A stretch of DNA of 34,835 nt from contig JAIPUZ010000009.1 in NCBI GenBank assembly GCA_022833215.1, positions 1 through 34,835 of the forward strand, in the 5' to 3' direction. Shown one piece after another: positions 28,142-34,516 of this stretch. The DNA is from Mesorhizobium sp. (GTDB lineage Bacteria > Pseudomonadota > Alphaproteobacteria > Rhizobiales > Rhizobiaceae). The notes under the pieces are model-generated. The model was not told the DNA's origin and ran no database searches. It saw only the letters and a list, made by a program, of their open reading frames with translations. Position 1 is the stretch's first letter; each line of letters opens with the position of its first letter. The position numbers and the translations under genes were made by a program.

Positions 28142-31100
28142 ATGGCGAAGAAAACCACGACGGCAAAGTCCCTCGACAAGGAAGTTGCCCAGGAGCTTGA
28201 AAAAGCCCTCGATCTCGAGCTGGATCTGGACGCGTCCGATATCGGCGATCTCGATATTGCGGCCTCCATGAAGGATCTGGAAGCGCAGATTGCGGAAGCT
28301 GCCGACGAACTGGCGCGTGCAAGCCGCACCTCGCAGGAACGGCAGCCTGAGCCTGCGGCAGAGGCAGCCGTGCAGGTTGCGGAACCGCAGCCCGCGCCGT
28401 CCGATCTTCGCCCCGTGGAGCCGCAAGCTGCGCAGCCTGCGGGCCTTGCTCCGGCCCCCGCAGGTTTTGCGCCGGCCAACGACGATCGGCAGAAGGACTA
28501 CAAGTCGCTTCTCCACAGCCTCAACCGCCGTGCGCCGAACACCATCTATTGGATCGTGGCGTTCCTGTCGCTGGCCTGGATTGCGGGTGCGGCCGCGCTG
28601 GCCAATCTGGTCATCGGCCCCGAAGTCTGGCAGGTGCGCTCCTTCGAGCAGTTTCTCGCCCGTCCGCAGCTGATCGGCCTTGTCGTCGCCACCGTTCTGC
28701 CCATCATCCTGTTCTGGGCCTTTGCCGCCATGGTGCGCCGTGCGCAGGAAATGCGCCTTGCCGCCCAGTCCATGACGGAGATGGCGTTCCGCCTGGCCGA
28801 ACCGGAAAGCATCGCTCAGGATCGCGTCATGGCGCTTGGCCAGGCCGTGCGCCGCGAAGTCGCGGCCATGGGCGAAGGCATCGAACGCACGCTGGCCCGT
28901 GCCGTCGAGCTAGAAACGCTGGTGCACAGCGAGGTCAACCAGATCGAGCGGTCCTACTCCGAGAACGAGGCGCGCATCCGCTCGCTCGTCGACGGTCTTG
29001 GCAGCGAGCGCGAGGCTGTCGTCGGCCATGCCGAGCGCGTTCGCGCCTCGATAGCCGGTGCGCATGAAACTCTGCGCGAGGAGATCAGCTCCGCCGGAGA
29101 CGCCATCCGCGAAAGCATCAAGGGCGCGTCGACCCAGCTTTCGATGACCATCACCTCCTCCGGTGACGCCCTGATCGACCGCATCAACGAAAGCTCCCTG
29201 TCGATCTTCGATTCTGTCGAAAACCGGCTCGATTCGATCACCGACCGCCTGTCGACCTCGGGCGAGGCATTTGCCTCCCTGCTCGACACCCGCATCGCCA
29301 AGCTGACCGACAGCGCCGACGGCCTCACCCGCTCGCTCACCGAACTGCTGGACGACCGCACTTCGGGCATGGTCTCGCTGCTGGGTGGCGCCGCGCGCAC
29401 CCTCACCTCCGAGTTCGAGGCGAGCCTGTCCGGCATCGAGCGTACGCTGGCCGAGCGCGGCCAGGCGCTGATCAGCGAGTTCGAAACCCGCGCCGAGGCG
29501 CTGGACACCGGCACGCAGAAGCTCAACGCAGCGCTCGAAGCACGCGCCCGCCAGATCAACGAGACGCTGGCCGAGCGCACCCGCGACATCGCCACGGCCT
29601 TCAACACCGGCAAGGATACCCTCTCCTCCATGATCGAGCAGGGCCGCGATCAGATCGGCTCCGATATGGCCGAACTGATTTCCTCGACCTCGACCATGCT
29701 CGAAACGCGTGCCGGCGAGTTCGCCGGCCGCCTCGAAGCCGCCCGCGACACCGTTTCCACCGCCTTCGATGCGGATATCGAAAAGCTGGCTGAAGCCCGC
29801 GCCGAGATCGACGAGGCCGTGCGCAGGCACGGCGCCGAGATGGCCGAAAGCCGCGAGCGCATGGCTGCCGCCCTGCACGACGATCTGGCGAAATTCGCCG
29901 AAGGCCGCGCCGAGATCGACACCGTCGTCTCCAGCCAGATCGAGAAGCTGGCCGAAGGCCGCAGCCTCATCTCGCGTGCCCTCGAGGAAGACCTGCGCAA
30001 GGTCAACGAATCCCGCGCCGCCATCGACGCCTCGCTTGGCACGCATCTCGAAACCCTCGAGGAAGGCCGCAAGCGGCTGGCGGACTCCCTGCACGAAGAC
30101 TCCCAGAAGCTTGTGCAGGCGCGTGCCAGCATTGACGAAATGGTCTCCAGCCATGTCGGAAAGCTGGCCGAAGGCCGAACCATTCTCTCTCGCGCGCTCG
30201 AAGCCGATCTTGCCAAGCTGGCCGAAAGCCGGTCGAGCATAGACGGCCTGGTAGCCGGACAGGTCGAGAAGCTGGCGGAGGGACGCGACATTCTGCGCCG
30301 TGCCATGGAAGCGGACCTTTCCAACATCAACCGCATGATTGCCGAGCACTCCGAAAAACTCGCCGGCGACCGCAATCTGCTGTCGCAGGTGCTGGAATCC
30401 GACCTCGCCAGGCTCGAGGAAAGCCGCGCCGGCATCGATGGTCTGGTTGCCGGCCAGCTTGAGAAGCTCGCGGAAGGCCGAGACTTCCTCAGGACTGCGC
30501 TCGAAGCCGACCTCGTCAACATCAACCAGATGATCACCGAGCATTCCGGGAAACTGGCGGGAGATCGCAACCTGCTGACGCAGGCGCTGGAAGCGGATCT
30601 TGCCAAGCTGGCCGAAAGCCGCGCAGGCATCGACGGTCTGGTCGCCGGGCAGGTGGAAAAGCTGGCCGAGGGACGCGATATCCTCAAGTCCGCTCTCGAA
30701 CGCGATCTGGACACCATCCGCACTGTGATTGCCGAACAATCCCAGCAGCTTGTCGGAGAGCGCGAACGCTTTTCGCATTCGCTTGAAGACGATCTGCGCA
30801 ATGTCAACAACCTCGTCGGCGCGCACGCCGATCGCCTGGTGCAGGAGCGCGCTGCCCTCGCCAGGGCCTTGGAAGATGACCTTGCCAGACTGGCCGAGAG
30901 CCGTTCGAGCATCGACGGTCTGGTTGCGGCTCAGGTCGAGAAGCTGGCCGAGGGACGCGACATCCTGCGCCGCGCGCTGGAAGCGGATCTCGCGAAGCTG
31001 GCCGAAAGCCGCTCGGACATCGACGGCCTTGTCTCCGGACAGGTCGAGAAGCTGGCCGAAGGCCGCGATATTCTCAAGCGCGCGCTGGAAACGGACCTCG

Positions 31101-34100
31101 GCACCGTCCAGCAGGCCATTTCCATGCAGGCTGAGAAGATGGCCGACGAGCGTGCAAAGCTCTCGCAGGCGCTGGATGAGGAACTGGCCCGCGTCAACAC
31201 CCTCATCGAGCAGCATGCCGGCCGTCTCGTGATGGATCGCAGCGCACTGTCACGCGTGCTTGAGGAAGATCTAGCAAAGCTGGCCGAAAGCCGCGCCGGC
31301 ATCGACGGCCTGGTTGCCGGACAGGTGGAAAAGCTGGCCGAAGGCCGCAACATCCTCCAGCGCGCGCTGGAAGCCGATCTGGAAAAGATTTTCCACAGCC
31401 GCGGGCAGATCGAGGAAGCCGTTGCAGGTCAGGTCGACAAGCTGGCCGACGCCCGCCGCGAGATCGACGTGGCCGTCAGCGATCACATCGAACGGATCGC
31501 CTCGACCAGCACGCGTATTTCCGATTCGATTACCGGCGACATCACCCGCATCGAGAACGCTTTCGAACGCCAGACCGGCGTCATCGAGGAGCGCACCACC
31601 ACCATGGAGCGCGCCCTCTCGATCGGCGTCGACAATATTCGTGGCACGCTTGAAAAGAGCGCCGTGTCCGTCGCAGGCGCTCTGCGCGACAAGGTTCTGG
31701 AAATCACGTCGGTGCTCAACGAACAGGCCGGCATGGCCTTCACCGACGCCGACCGCAAGATCGCCGAGCGTGCCGAACAGACCTCGGCCGCCCTGCTCTC
31801 GCGGGCACAGGATATTTCCCGTGCCTTCGAGGAGGCGGAAGGTCGTCTTGCCAGCCGCGCGGAAGACACGTCCTCGATGCTGATCGCCCGCGCCGAGGAA
31901 ACCGCCGACAGCCTTGCGGCCCGGGCCGGGTCCATCGTCGAGAGCTTCGAGGTCGCCGACCAGCGCCTCGCCCAGCGGGCGATCGAAACGGCGCAGTCGC
32001 TGGCGGCGCGCGCCGGCGATATCCTGCGCAACTTCGAGGATGCCGACGCCCGTCTCGGCACCCGCATCGGCGAATCCGCCGAGGCTCTGGCCGCACGCGC
32101 CGCCGATCTCGGCCGCATCTTCGAAGCGGCTGACGAAAAGCTTGTTGCGCGCATTGCCGAAGGTTCCGAGGCTCTTACCGGCCGTGCGGCCGAGATGAGC
32201 CAGATCTTCGACGCCGCCGACCAGAAACTGACGCAGCGCATCGCCGAAGGCTCGCAGACCCTCGTCGGCCGCGCTGCCGAGGTGGGACGCGTCTTCGAAG
32301 AGGTCGACCAGCAGATCACCCGGCGTATCGCGGAAGGCTCCGAGGTTCTGGGTGGCCGCGCGGCCGAGATGGGACGCGTCTTCGAAGATGTGAACCACAA
32401 GCTGACGCAACGCGTTACCGAGAGCTCCGAGGTTCTGGGCGAACGCGCCGCCGAAATCGCCCGCGTGTTCGACGAAGCCGACAACCGTATCGTTTCGCGC
32501 ATTGCCGATACGGCATCGACCATCGGCCAGCACGCCGAAAACATCGTCGGCGCCTTCGCGCAGACGGAACGGCAGGTTGCCGAGCGCGCCGTCGAAACCG
32601 GCAGGGCTCTCGCCGATCAGGCGCGCTCCATCGAGACCGCGCTTGCCGGTGCTGACGAACGTCTGGCCGCCGGCGCCGCCACCGTCGCGAGCCGCATCGG
32701 CGATGAAGTCGCCAGCGCCGAGAACCGCTTCGCCCGGTCGGCGGAAGCGATGGGCGAGAAGCTGAACGAGCAGATCGCCCAGGCCGAAAACCAGCTCGTG
32801 GCCCGCGCCAACACCATTGCCGAGACCTTCACCGCGGTTGGCCAGCATATCGGCCAGAGCACCAACGAGGCGGCAAGGACCATCGGTTCCAACACGCGCG
32901 AGCTCAACGACATGCTGGCCCAGCGCTCGTCCGAGATTTCCCGCATTCTCGACGAGACCGCGCGTCCGCTGGTCGAGCGTTTTGCCGATGGCGGCTCCGA
33001 ACTGCAAAAGAGCATGGAGGAAGCGACAGAGCGCGCCACCGAAAAGCTGCGGCAGGAAAACGCACGGCTTTCCAGCGCGCTCGCCAACCGCACGGCGGAA
33101 ACGCTGTCGGCGGTGGAGAACGCCCGCGCGACGCTTGCCGAGAACATCAACGACCTCATCGGCCGTCTGGGAGCTTCCAGCCAGGGGCTCGGCCAGCTCA
33201 TCGAACGGGCGGCAGCCAACCTCGGCGAGATCGATGAGAAGCTGGCTGGCAGCACGCAGAGCTTCGCGGCGACCACCGAAAAGGCCGCGCAGACTTTTGC
33301 AAGCTCGGCGCGTCTGGTCGACTCCAACACCACGCGACTCACCGAACTGTCCTCCAACACACTGCGCGAGGTGGCTTCCATCGCCACCAGGTTCGACGAG
33401 CACAGCCGCCTGCTGTCCAGCGCATCCGAACTGCTCAGTTCCGCCCAGAGCAATCTGGAGCACACGCTGGAGCGCCAGTCCTCGCTGGACGACCTCGCCG
33501 TCGGCCTGGTGAAGAAGTCGGAAGATCTCGAAAAGGTCATGAAGTCCTTCGAGTCGCTCGTCAGCCGCACCCTGCAGACGGCCGAGAGCCGCACGCTGGA
33601 ATCGGCCGACAAGATCCGCTCCTCCATTGGCGATGTCGTGGAGGCCGCCACGAAGCGCTTCGCCGACGCCACCGACGAGATGCGCCGCACCGCATCCGCC
33701 ATCAAGAGCGAACTGGACATCACCCGTGCCGAGCTGAAGCGAGGCGTGGTGGAGATGCCGGCAGAGGCGAAGGAATCGACCACTGCCATCCGCCGCGCCG
33801 TTTCCGAGCAGATCAACGCTCTGAAGGAACTGTCGGCGATCGTCGCAAAGTCCGGCCGCAGCACGGAGGCCCCGCAATCGGGCAATTTGCGCCCTGCAAC
33901 GCAGGCCCCTGCTCCGCGTCCGCCCGAGCAGCCGCAGCGTCCCGCTCCGCAGCCTTCCGCCGGCACGCTTGGCGACACGGCTCTTCGCGGCGCGCTCGAC
34001 AAGGAGCAGGGTTCGCAGACTGCACTGCGTCCGCGCGAGCCGGAAGCCCGCCAGCAAGCGCAGCAGGGTGGCTGGGTTCGCGACCTGCTCACGGGCGCTT

Positions 34101-34516
34101 CGCGGGACGAGGCCGCAAAGCCGGCTGCGGATACTCCGCGCGCCGCAAAGCCGGCCGAACGTTCGCCGCTGCATGTGGTGGAATCGCTCAACTCGCTGTC
34201 GGTCGACATTGCCCGGGCTATCGACCACGAAGCCTCGATCGAGTTGTGGAACCGCTACCGTCGCGGCGAGCGCGATGTGTTCACGCGTCGTCTCTACACC
34301 CTCAAGGGCCAGCAGACCTTCGACGACATCCGCCGCAAGTATCAGGCGGAAGCCGAGTTCCGGGCCGCCGTGGACCGTTATTGCGAGGACTTCGAGAAGC
34401 TCCTAAAGGATGTTGCCCGCACCGACCGCGACAACATCATGACGCAGACCTATCTCACTTCCGATACCGGCAAGGTCTACACCATGCTGGCTCACGCCAG
34501 CGGGCGCCTGCGGTAG
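28142..34516 (+). CDS. gpr: Growth Pole Ring (GPR)-like giant coiled-coil protein, 2,124 aa
   Basis: A 2,124-residue protein whose length and layout match GPR of Agrobacterium (about 2,115 aa, a ring at the growing pole needed for polar growth; annotated as apolipoprotein-like in rhizobia). N-terminus: acidic and Pro/Gln-rich (1-115). Two membrane segments follow (about 135-157 and 177-197), then a long alpha-helical region of about 1,700 residues that lies on one side of the membrane. Within it are two repeat arrays (545-1114 and 1221-1521; see repeat entries). A Pro/Gln-rich linker (about 1895-1990) leads to a small C-terminal domain of about 115 residues (SVDIARAIDHEASIELWNRY onwards). The start at 28142 has GAAGG 3 bases upstream. 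Closed by the terminator at 34537-34565. The high-GC antisense frames across it are artefacts. Confidence 0.85.
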   Translation: MAKKTTTAKSLDKEVAQELEKALDLELDLDASDIGDLDIAASMKDLEAQIAEAADELARASRTSQERQPEPAAEAAVQVAEPQPAPSDLRPVEPQAAQPAGLAPAPAGFAPANDDRQKDYKSLLHSLNRRAPNTIYWIVAFLSLAWIAGAAALANLVIGPEVWQVRSFEQFLARPQLIGLVVATVLPIILFWAFAAMVRRAQEMRLAAQSMTEMAFRLAEPESIAQDRVMALGQAVRREVAAMGEGIERTLARAVELETLVHSEVNQIERSYSENEARIRSLVDGLGSEREAVVGHAERVRASIAGAHETLREEISSAGDAIRESIKGASTQLSMTITSSGDALIDRINESSLSIFDSVENRLDSITDRLSTSGEAFASLLDTRIAKLTDSADGLTRSLTELLDDRTSGMVSLLGGAARTLTSEFEASLSGIERTLAERGQALISEFETRAEALDTGTQKLNAALEARARQINETLAERTRDIATAFNTGKDTLSSMIEQGRDQIGSDMAELISSTSTMLETRAGEFAGRLEAARDTVSTAFDADIEKLAEARAEIDEAVRRHGAEMAESRERMAAALHDDLAKFAEGRAEIDTVVSSQIEKLAEGRSLISRALEEDLRKVNESRAAIDASLGTHLETLEEGRKRLADSLHEDSQKLVQARASIDEMVSSHVGKLAEGRTILSRALEADLAKLAESRSSIDGLVAGQVEKLAEGRDILRRAMEADLSNINRMIAEHSEKLAGDRNLLSQVLESDLARLEESRAGIDGLVAGQLEKLAEGRDFLRTALEADLVNINQMITEHSGKLAGDRNLLTQALEADLAKLAESRAGIDGLVAGQVEKLAEGRDILKSALERDLDTIRTVIAEQSQQLVGERERFSHSLEDDLRNVNNLVGAHADRLVQERAALARALEDDLARLAESRSSIDGLVAAQVEKLAEGRDILRRALEADLAKLAESRSDIDGLVSGQVEKLAEGRDILKRALETDLGTVQQAISMQAEKMADERAKLSQALDEELARVNTLIEQHAGRLVMDRSALSRVLEEDLAKLAESRAGIDGLVAGQVEKLAEGRNILQRALEADLEKIFHSRGQIEEAVAGQVDKLADARREIDVAVSDHIERIASTSTRISDSITGDITRIENAFERQTGVIEERTTTMERALSIGVDNIRGTLEKSAVSVAGALRDKVLEITSVLNEQAGMAFTDADRKIAERAEQTSAALLSRAQDISRAFEEAEGRLASRAEDTSSMLIARAEETADSLAARAGSIVESFEVADQRLAQRAIETAQSLAARAGDILRNFEDADARLGTRIGESAEALAARAADLGRIFEAADEKLVARIAEGSEALTGRAAEMSQIFDAADQKLTQRIAEGSQTLVGRAAEVGRVFEEVDQQITRRIAEGSEVLGGRAAEMGRVFEDVNHKLTQRVTESSEVLGERAAEIARVFDEADNRIVSRIADTASTIGQHAENIVGAFAQTERQVAERAVETGRALADQARSIETALAGADERLAAGAATVASRIGDEVASAENRFARSAEAMGEKLNEQIAQAENQLVARANTIAETFTAVGQHIGQSTNEAARTIGSNTRELNDMLAQRSSEISRILDETARPLVERFADGGSELQKSMEEATERATEKLRQENARLSSALANRTAETLSAVENARATLAENINDLIGRLGASSQGLGQLIERAAANLGEIDEKLAGSTQSFAATTEKAAQTFASSARLVDSNTTRLTELSSNTLREVASIATRFDEHSRLLSSASELLSSAQSNLEHTLERQSSLDDLAVGLVKKSEDLEKVMKSFESLVSRTLQTAESRTLESADKIRSSIGDVVEAATKRFADATDEMRRTASAIKSELDITRAELKRGVVEMPAEAKESTTAIRRAVSEQINALKELSAIVAKSGRSTEAPQSGNLRPATQAPAPRPPEQPQRPAPQPSAGTLGDTALRGALDKEQGSQTALRPREPEARQQAQQGGWVRDLLTGASRDEAAKPAADTPRAAKPAERSPLHVVESLNSLSVDIARAIDHEASIELWNRYRRGERDVFTRRLYTLKGQQTFDDIRRKYQAEAEFRAAVDRYCEDFEKLLKDVARTDRDNIMTQTYLTSDTGKVYTMLAHASGRLR
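29774..31483 (+). repeat. GPR repeat array 1: 17 units of 36 or 29 residues
   Basis: Codons 545-1114 form 17 consecutive units, each beginning near a D-L (or similar) pair. Eleven units are 36 residues (e.g. DLAKLAESRAGIDGLVAGQV then EKLAEGRDILRRALEA) and six are 29 residues (e.g. DLVNINQMITEHSGKLAGDR then NLLTQALEA). 11x36 + 6x29 = 570 residues, which accounts for the whole segment without gaps. The 29-residue units lack exactly one heptad. At the DNA level the 36-mers are highly similar to each other, which implies duplication by recombination. Confidence 0.88.
31802..32704 (+). repeat. GPR repeat array 2: ten 29-residue units plus one hendecad
   Basis: Codons 1221-1521 form ten 29-residue units that start RA(A/E/G/Q)-x or similar (e.g. 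RAAEMGRVFEDVNHKLTQRV then TESSEVLGE), plus one extra 11-residue block (RAEETADSLAA, residues 1250-1260) after the first unit. 10x29 + 11 = 301 residues with no gaps. The unit differs in sequence from array 1 but shares its 29-residue length. Confidence 0.87.

Follow-up and report, generated by a model that had tools for sequence, protein, structure and literature searches.

A GPR/RgsE-type protein of Mesorhizobium sp. with a giant helical rod that varies in length while its hydrophobic stripe stays in phase

The window analyzed here is a whole stretch of 34,835 nucleotides from Mesorhizobium sp. (assembly GCA_022833215.1, contig JAIPUZ010000009.1, positions 1 to 34,835 of the forward strand), and it contains an open reading frame (ORF; 28142-34516) for a giant protein resembling GPR, the growth-pole protein reportedly first described in a 2019 paper (PNAS). 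We consider it probable that the rod of this protein is a very long alpha-helix with one narrow hydrophobic stripe, based on hendecads with heptads interposed, and that it forms a nearly straight, parallel coiled coil in which the stripe is locked in phase. By its architecture, the ORF can be assigned to the GPR/RgsE type: it is giant and encodes an N-terminal hydrophobic pair (segments read by eye), a long Pro-poor helix, a Pro-rich linker, and a conserved C-terminus, and the likeness to Atu1348 and SMc00190 was drawn through published descriptions of those proteins.

The repeat region (29774-32704) corresponds to residues 545-1521. It was described in the initial annotation as arrays of 29-, 36-, and 40-residue units differing by exactly one heptad or hendecad, and autocorrelation, a motif parse, and gapped alignment agreed on this description. 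Array 1 (residues 576-1109) comprised 16 consecutive units, ten 36-mers and six 29-mers, in the order 36, 36, 36, 36, 29, 36, 29, 36, 29, 29, 36, 36, 29, 29, 36, 36; it was parsed by a start motif, the end of the last unit being set, not found. Array 2 (1210-1510) comprised one 29-mer, one 40-mer (1239-1278), and then eight 29-mers, with most starts given by a motif, starts 1210 and 1308 set by eye, and the last end set. Autocorrelation peaked at lags 130, 36, 65 (= 36 + 29), and 94 in residues 545-1070 (z up to 22.5 against shuffles) and at lags 29, 58, and 87 in residues 1070-1521 (z up to 18.8). Additionally, TRF detected both arrays at the DNA level, with periods of 195, 108, and 87 bases. 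The best alignment of the 36-mer with the 29-mer contained one 7-residue gap after residue 7-9 of the 29-mer (44.3 versus 23.3 ungapped). The 36-mer is a 29-mer plus a heptad, and the 40-mer is 29 + 11. Both unit lengths proposed for array 1 were present, but 29 was not the leading one, since 36 is commoner (10 of 16).

A common origin of the two arrays, also suggested in the initial annotation, was not borne out. In a profile comparison over all circular offsets, column permutations preserving the core reached the observed score in 1417 of 2000 and 776 of 2000 cases, a likeness no greater than the hydrophobic pattern gives, and the shared length of 29 is therefore no evidence of shared descent. 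The 36-mer holds an internal 18-residue repeat (reached by 16 of 2000 core-preserving permutations). An 18-residue basic unit was also considered and rejected: the 29-mers of array 1 had no excess at lags 11 or 18 (1030 and 1040 of 2000 nulls) and those of array 2 had a weak excess (82 and 79 of 2000 nulls), and since the 29-mers lack a clear signal at these lags, 18 residues does not hold as a general unit.

The spectrum of large hydrophobic residues peaked at periods of 3.600 in residues 545-690 (36/10), 3.612 in residues 690-1070 (65/18 = 3.611), 3.624 in residues 1195-1500 (29/8 = 3.625), and 3.656 in residues 320-545. A dynamic-programming path of 3- and 4-residue steps gave mean steps of 3.600 (576-719), 3.611 (720-1109), 3.627 (1210-1510), and 3.672 (320-545). 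Power at 3.5, the period of a canonical heptad coiled coil, was 0.4-1.8 in the array segments, which do not follow that period; residues 320-545 and 40 homologues (median 3.663) lie near 11/3, and arrays 1 and 2 are mixed. Stripe periods and step paths in the arrays lie between 3.5 and 11/3, in agreement with the mixed heptad and hendecad geometry expected from the unit lengths. From residue 239 to 1735 the stripe drifts within about one turn relative to a straight helix of 3.63, and beyond residue 1735 its phase drifts further. The central 40-degree bin of the helical wheel was 100% I/L/V/M/F in the arrays (16/16, 42/42, and 24/24), the adjoining bins 25-57%. Large hydrophobic residues make up 25% of the rod, the net charge is -5.1 per 100 residues over 148 rods, and a single Tyr is present in the rod of the window.

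Homologues were taken from a family sample (60 of 137 matched genomes fetched, found with an out-of-frame query), a genus sample (40 of 60 matched genomes), and the best 80 of 571 named loci. An ORF of 900 aa or more carrying the C-terminal motif was obtained from 173 of these 180 loci (L032-L211), and three of them, which lacked the N-terminal block, were dropped. The resulting 171 rods, including that of the window, comprised 148 distinct ones, 116 of which formed 58 disjoint nearest-neighbour pairs; the C-terminal linker and the stretch of 170 residues preceding the rod served as flanking segments. Rod length ranged from 719 to 2883 aa, and 40 of the 58 pairs differed in it; with this fourfold range, the rod is unlikely to act as a strict ruler, including for ring size.

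The pairs contained 86 insertions or deletions (indels) in the rod, most commonly of 29 (24 cases), 36 (14), and 11 (10) residues, and single indels of 7 and 11 residues also occurred. Of those shorter than 60 residues, 64 of 66 were sums of 7 and 11, versus 7 of 185 in the flanking segments. Four gap-cost settings gave 64/66, 69/72, 69/73, and 63/65, and for the 49 closest pairs 41/41, 44/44, 44/45, and 40/40 (standard setting 41/41, loosest 44/45). Indels of 1-6 residues numbered two in 94.5 thousand rod residues versus 165 in 16.9 thousand flanking residues, where indels of 1-15 residues were free. Many insertions breaking the 7/11 rule in homologues had been named beforehand as grounds for refutation; they were looked for in the rod pairs and not found.

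Sums of 7 and 11 make up 29 of the 59 lengths below 60 and all lengths of 60 or more; as this makes the criterion weak, helix phase was tested directly. A period was fitted to the indel lengths alone, and the null consisted of lengths jittered by up to 3 residues, 1000 times. All 86 rod indels gave a period of 3.616 (R 0.869), and the 24 distinct lengths gave R 0.676. Pairs of the 29/36 class gave 3.614 (R 0.933, n = 72), and seven indels of hendecad-class pairs together with 16 from other families gave 3.662 (R 0.948, n = 23); this fit omits the pair L089/L090 (indels of 2 and 11; L089 classed as other) and five indels from pairs of the 40 and 51/62 classes. In each of these tests, the jitter null reached the observed value in 0 of 1000 trials. 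The independently measured stripe periods were 3.621 for the 29/36 class, 3.635 for the 40-mers (40/11 = 3.636), 3.643 for the 51/62 class, 3.656 for the hendecad class, and 3.663 for other families. The claim that length changes keep the stripe in register thus held in the window protein and in its homologues, with 64 of 66 short rod indels in rule and indel-fitted periods matching the stripe periods. Nearly all rod indels, whether tandem copies or not, lie near whole numbers of stripe turns, and unit lengths, stripe periods, and indel lengths are mutually consistent, clade by clade.

The rod had initially been described as built on a 29-residue unit, a reading that did not survive comparison with other families. 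In a set of 40 loci from 13 families, all outside that of the window (12 were missed by the strict motif and recovered by alignment to the C-terminal domain), the commonest self-match lag was a multiple of 11 in 30 proteins; eight others favoured a lag of 40 and one a lag of 62, and in the last one 88 and 29 tied. The lags up to 89 residues were 11, 18, 22, 29, 33, 36, 40, 43, 44, 51, 54, 55, 58, 62, 66, 72, 77, 80, 87, and 88. From 12 disjoint pairs of this order-wide set, 18 rod indels were obtained, two of which, both of 2 residues, lay in the linker on inspection; the remaining 16 were 15 multiples of 11 and one 40. Within the family, strong self-matches below 60 residues in the 148 rods were confined to 11, 22, 29, 33, 36, 40, 44, 46, 47, 51, 55, and 58, except for lags 5 and 12 in one rod (L089). 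The latter contains a poly-alanine stretch and lag-5 repeats, and the adjoining 2-residue indel against L090 is one of the two out-of-rule rod indels.

The family comprised 112 rods of the 29/36 class, 15 of the hendecad class, nine of the 51/62 class, seven of the 40 class, four with no unit, and one other. These classes were clustered on a tree of the non-repeat ends, with 10 changes versus a shuffled mean of 35 (FastTree, midpoint root, 51 of 137 inner branches drawn open). The 29/36, 40, and 51/62 units are clade-specific mixes of hendecads with added heptads, and the 29/36/40 units of the window protein belong to the Mesorhizobium/Aquamicrobium lineage. The hendecad is the basic and probably also the ancestral unit of the rod; this polarity, hendecads first and heptads added, rests on the state in other families. 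The 40-mers in eight of the 40 other-family proteins indicate that heptads were added outside the family of the window too, or were present earlier.

On the basis of these patterns, we suggest that hendecads (11 residues, 3 turns) were the founding unit of one continuous, single-stripe helix, and that heptads (7 residues, 2 turns) were interposed in the Mesorhizobium/Aquamicrobium lineage, giving 29 = 11 + 11 + 7 and 36 = 11 + 7 + 11 + 7, with 40 arising by a further hendecad. The stripe would be the face through which identical chains contact one another, in a coiled-coil oligomer that is nearly straight, parallel, and in register. Each whole-turn indel would be made in every chain at once, and since such an oligomer changes all of its chains together, its length could vary while its phase could not. 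At the growth pole, the rod might then act as both spacer and scaffold for the N-terminus, anchored in the membrane, and the conserved C-terminal domain. The ratio of heptads to hendecads may set the handedness of the supercoil, with 3.66 slightly right-handed, about 3.63 straight, and 3.61 slightly left-handed; this would make the GPR rods of other families slightly right-handed and give array 1 of the window a slight left-handed twist. We are evenly divided on the broader proposition that the GPR rod is free in length but locked in phase, selection fixing the angle of one stripe over more than 1000 residues, and that one family retuned the period from 3.66 through 3.63 to 3.61 by means of heptads, altering the twist of the scaffold by lineage.

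Several observations weigh against the phase-locked coiled coil. Of the 86 rod indels, 65 can be recognised as tandem copies (identity of at least 50%), so the quantisation may largely descend from the first phased unit. A purely mutational account, in which whole units are gained or lost through recombination among tandem copies, the first unit was in phase by chance, and the stripe is under no selection, would also fit the finding that most indels in the 29/36 clade are 29, 36, or their sums. We nevertheless think this account unlikely. Indels without clear tandem identity kept phase as well: the 21 with less than 50% identity had a best R of 0.79 and the 13 with less than 35% a best R of 0.85, values reached by 0 of 1000 nulls each. 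This argues against mutation as the sole cause; in addition, lone indels of 7 and 11 residues exist, clades differ in their unit, each class matching its own stripe period, and small indels are nearly absent from the rod but common in the flanks. The flanks are partly Pro/Ala-rich and may slip unusually readily, so that the rate ratio may overstate the difference, although the length spectrum is independent of it. There are also exceptions: rod indels of 2 and 4 residues fall outside the rule, those of 32 and two of 68 residues fit the phase less well, and the pairs concerned are of 72-74% identity. The stripe weakens at residues 1196-1207, between the arrays, and 1779-1790, near the rod end, which are candidate hinges or partner sites. 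The oligomeric state and parallel orientation are features that we infer, and an AlphaFold2 model of residues 545-1521 made without an alignment was poor (pLDDT 58.9, pTM 0.24); it shows long helical pieces interrupted by breaks and gives no information on partners. Finally, a deletion of about 20 aa in the A-IV-1 coiled coil of GPR still complemented significantly, a milder effect than strict phase-locking predicts (excerpts of PMC8262873).

An apolipoprotein-like action was also weighed, in which an 11-residue-based amphipathic helix lies on or wraps lipid. Class A helices have a wide hydrophobic face suited to lipid, and no such face was found in the rod of the window: only one 40-degree bin is fully hydrophobic, large hydrophobics amount to a quarter of the residues, Trp is missing, Tyr occurs once, and the charge is strongly acidic. 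Hendecad periodicity is a trait that the rod does share with apolipoproteins, and the Apolipoprotein profile PF01442 of Pfam matched with an E value of 4.3e-25, but at 89 bits it fell just below the cut-off of 90 and missed the gathering score. The arrays had no sequence match in the PDB at E 0.01, and hence no relatives of solved structure at that threshold. The action follows the Pfam label and Zupan et al. 2021, and excerpts of PMC8262873 report that function is impaired by two deletions of A-IV-like domains. A narrow stripe on an acidic, Trp-free rod fits a nearly straight coiled coil better than an apolipoprotein helix lying on lipid, and we rate the lipid account a shade below the mutational one. 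The fit to PF01442 probably reflects the common hendecad pattern rather than shown homology.

An alpha-helix rises 0.15 nm per residue, giving about 255 nm for 1,700 residues, and this length weakens the published case that GPR has to be folded in order to fit into 50-nm foci. For the extended 1,700-residue helical domain, excerpts of PMC8262873 give 600 nm. That the foci are smaller than the extended helix (PMC8262873, in part), together with SWISS-MODEL models, has suggested an antiparallel bundle in which the rod folds back on itself; unit-wise sliding of a periodic bundle would be possible. One-sided changes of 29 residues or more, seen at 95-99% rod identity, would demand a matching change in the other arm. 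As a control from the same family we used SMC, a coiled coil with two antiparallel arms (30 loci returned of 80 matched genomes; gaps within 40 residues of the start or 25 of the end omitted): 15 pairs, of 58-83% identity and more diverged than most GPR pairs, contained 10 interior indels, none above 5 aa, and nine of them at residues 504-617, probably the hinge. We therefore regard the folded bundle as highly improbable, and retain the parallel, phase-locked coiled coil as the preferred reading.

Earlier experiments on Agrobacterium tumefaciens can be viewed in this light. According to excerpts of PMC8262873, GPR organises polar growth in this species, its helix-rich secondary structure 'does not offer easy clues', and its described elements are A-IV-like domains and coiled coils of 21 aa; none of the words repeat, heptad, hendecad, or amphipathic appears in the main text. 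The same source reports that deletion of the A-IV-4 coiled coil (about 20 residues) was 'surprisingly' the most severe in an interference assay, deletion of the whole A-IV-4 domain being less so, and states the size of the former variously as 20 aa, 21 aa, 413-433, and 413-434. At an assumed period of 3.65, a 20-residue deletion is 5.5 turns, half a turn out of phase, and 22 residues are 6.0 turns. Deletions of 20 or 21 residues would shift the stripe by about half or a quarter turn, which could explain the severity of the A-IV-4 coiled-coil deletion; this is a lead only, and it is weakened by the good complementation seen with a deletion of the same size in A-IV-1 and by the fact that 413-434, with both end residues counted, covers 22 residues and would keep the phase. 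No description of a 7/11 repeat rule for GPR was found among the listed papers, judged by title and abstract start, a coverage from which subscription papers are mostly absent.

The features of the ORF are listed in Table 1. The C-terminal domain was found in 146 of 149 genomes of the order and 43 of 44 sampled families in an order-wide search, and its approximately 115 aa were 81-95% identical to the window protein in 17 other loci. It had no Pfam match; its AlphaFold2 model was all-helical (pLDDT 74.7, pTM 0.69), and Foldseek gave no match to this model in the PDB at E 0.001 or better. The domain may be the functional head of GPR. Among the best 80 of 571 named loci, the nearest named relative was Aquamicrobium defluvii, with a 100% identical C-terminal domain and a 98% identical rod without indels. 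Residues 1313-1605 weakly matched the NCBIfam model of the anti-phage protein ZorA (7e-5, 21 bits versus a cut-off of 190), probably through shared helical periodicity only. Additionally, two long open frames lie antisense to the rod, at 28910-31216 (768 aa) and 31271-34228 (985 aa) of the reverse strand, and are probably a by-product of repeat codon use and not genes.

Table 1. Features of the GPR/RgsE-type ORF in the window
Feature	Coordinates	Strand	Basis
GPR/RgsE-type giant growth-pole protein, 2124 aa	28142..34516	+	ORF list, Pfam match, C-terminal domain
Two hydrophobic stretches, probable transmembrane segments, about residues 130-200	28529..28741	+	Sequence by eye
Helical rod, residues 206-1895; 3 Pro, 0 Trp, 0 Cys, net charge -91	28757..33826	+	Composition
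Hendecad-dominated segment, residues 320-545, stripe period 3.656	29099..29776	+	Spectrum; lags 22/33/11 lead in 210-545
Array 1, four 36-residue units (576-719); stripe period 3.600 (measured on 545-690)	29867..30298	+	Motif parse, spectrum
Array 1, mixed 36/29 units (720-1109); stripe period 3.612, about 65/18 (measured on 690-1070)	30299..31468	+	Motif parse, spectrum
Array 2, nine 29-residue units and one 40-residue unit (1210-1510); period 3.624, about 29/8 (measured on 1195-1500)	31769..32671	+	Motif parse, spectrum
Single 40-residue unit (residues 1239-1278) = 29 + one hendecad	31856..31975	+	Motif parse
Pro-rich linker, about residues 1896-2005; many small indels among homologues	33827..34156	+	Sequence, homologue pairs
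Highly conserved C-terminal domain, about 115 aa	34157..34513	+	Alignment, Pfam, AlphaFold2, Foldseek

A giant helical protein probably organises tip growth in these bacteria, and evolution alters the length of its rod freely and the direction of its stripe almost never. The phase rule provides a testable map of the stripe, its breaks, and the deletions expected to be tolerated (22 and 33; 29 and 36 in the 29/36 lineage) or not (20, 24, and 31). Under this rule, the apolipoprotein label would point to hendecad periodicity and not to lipid carriage.

Compared with known systems, the window protein is closest to GPR (Atu1348, A. tumefaciens, 2115 aa) and RgsE (SMc00190, Sinorhizobium meliloti, 2089 aa), with which it shares its giant size, an N-terminal membrane anchor, and apolipoprotein-like matches, and, for GPR, a continuous helix of about 1700 aa and a Pro-rich stretch before a functionally important C-terminus (PMC8262873 and PMC7327166, in part). 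The 29/36/40 units are known from the lineage of the window, whereas the A. tumefaciens rod has been described by A-IV-like domains and coiled coils. Apolipoproteins A-I, A-IV, and E (PF01442) have a similar 11-residue-based amphipathic periodicity, but the GPR rod is far longer and has a narrow stripe, an acidic charge, no Trp, and interposed heptads. To our knowledge, no other rod shifts its heptad and hendecad mix by lineage, although no systematic search was made. Mixed heptad/hendecad coiled coils show the same 18/5 and 11/3 patterns and the same allowed periods (about 3.5-3.67), insertions of 2 and 6 residues being the most strained (PMC4786415 and PMC9369452, in part); the GPR mix differs from them in shifting by lineage, across the straight value of about 3.63, in rods of up to 2883 residues. 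SMC of the same family holds its interior length to within 5 aa per indel, whereas the GPR rod appears to be locked in phase and yet free in length.

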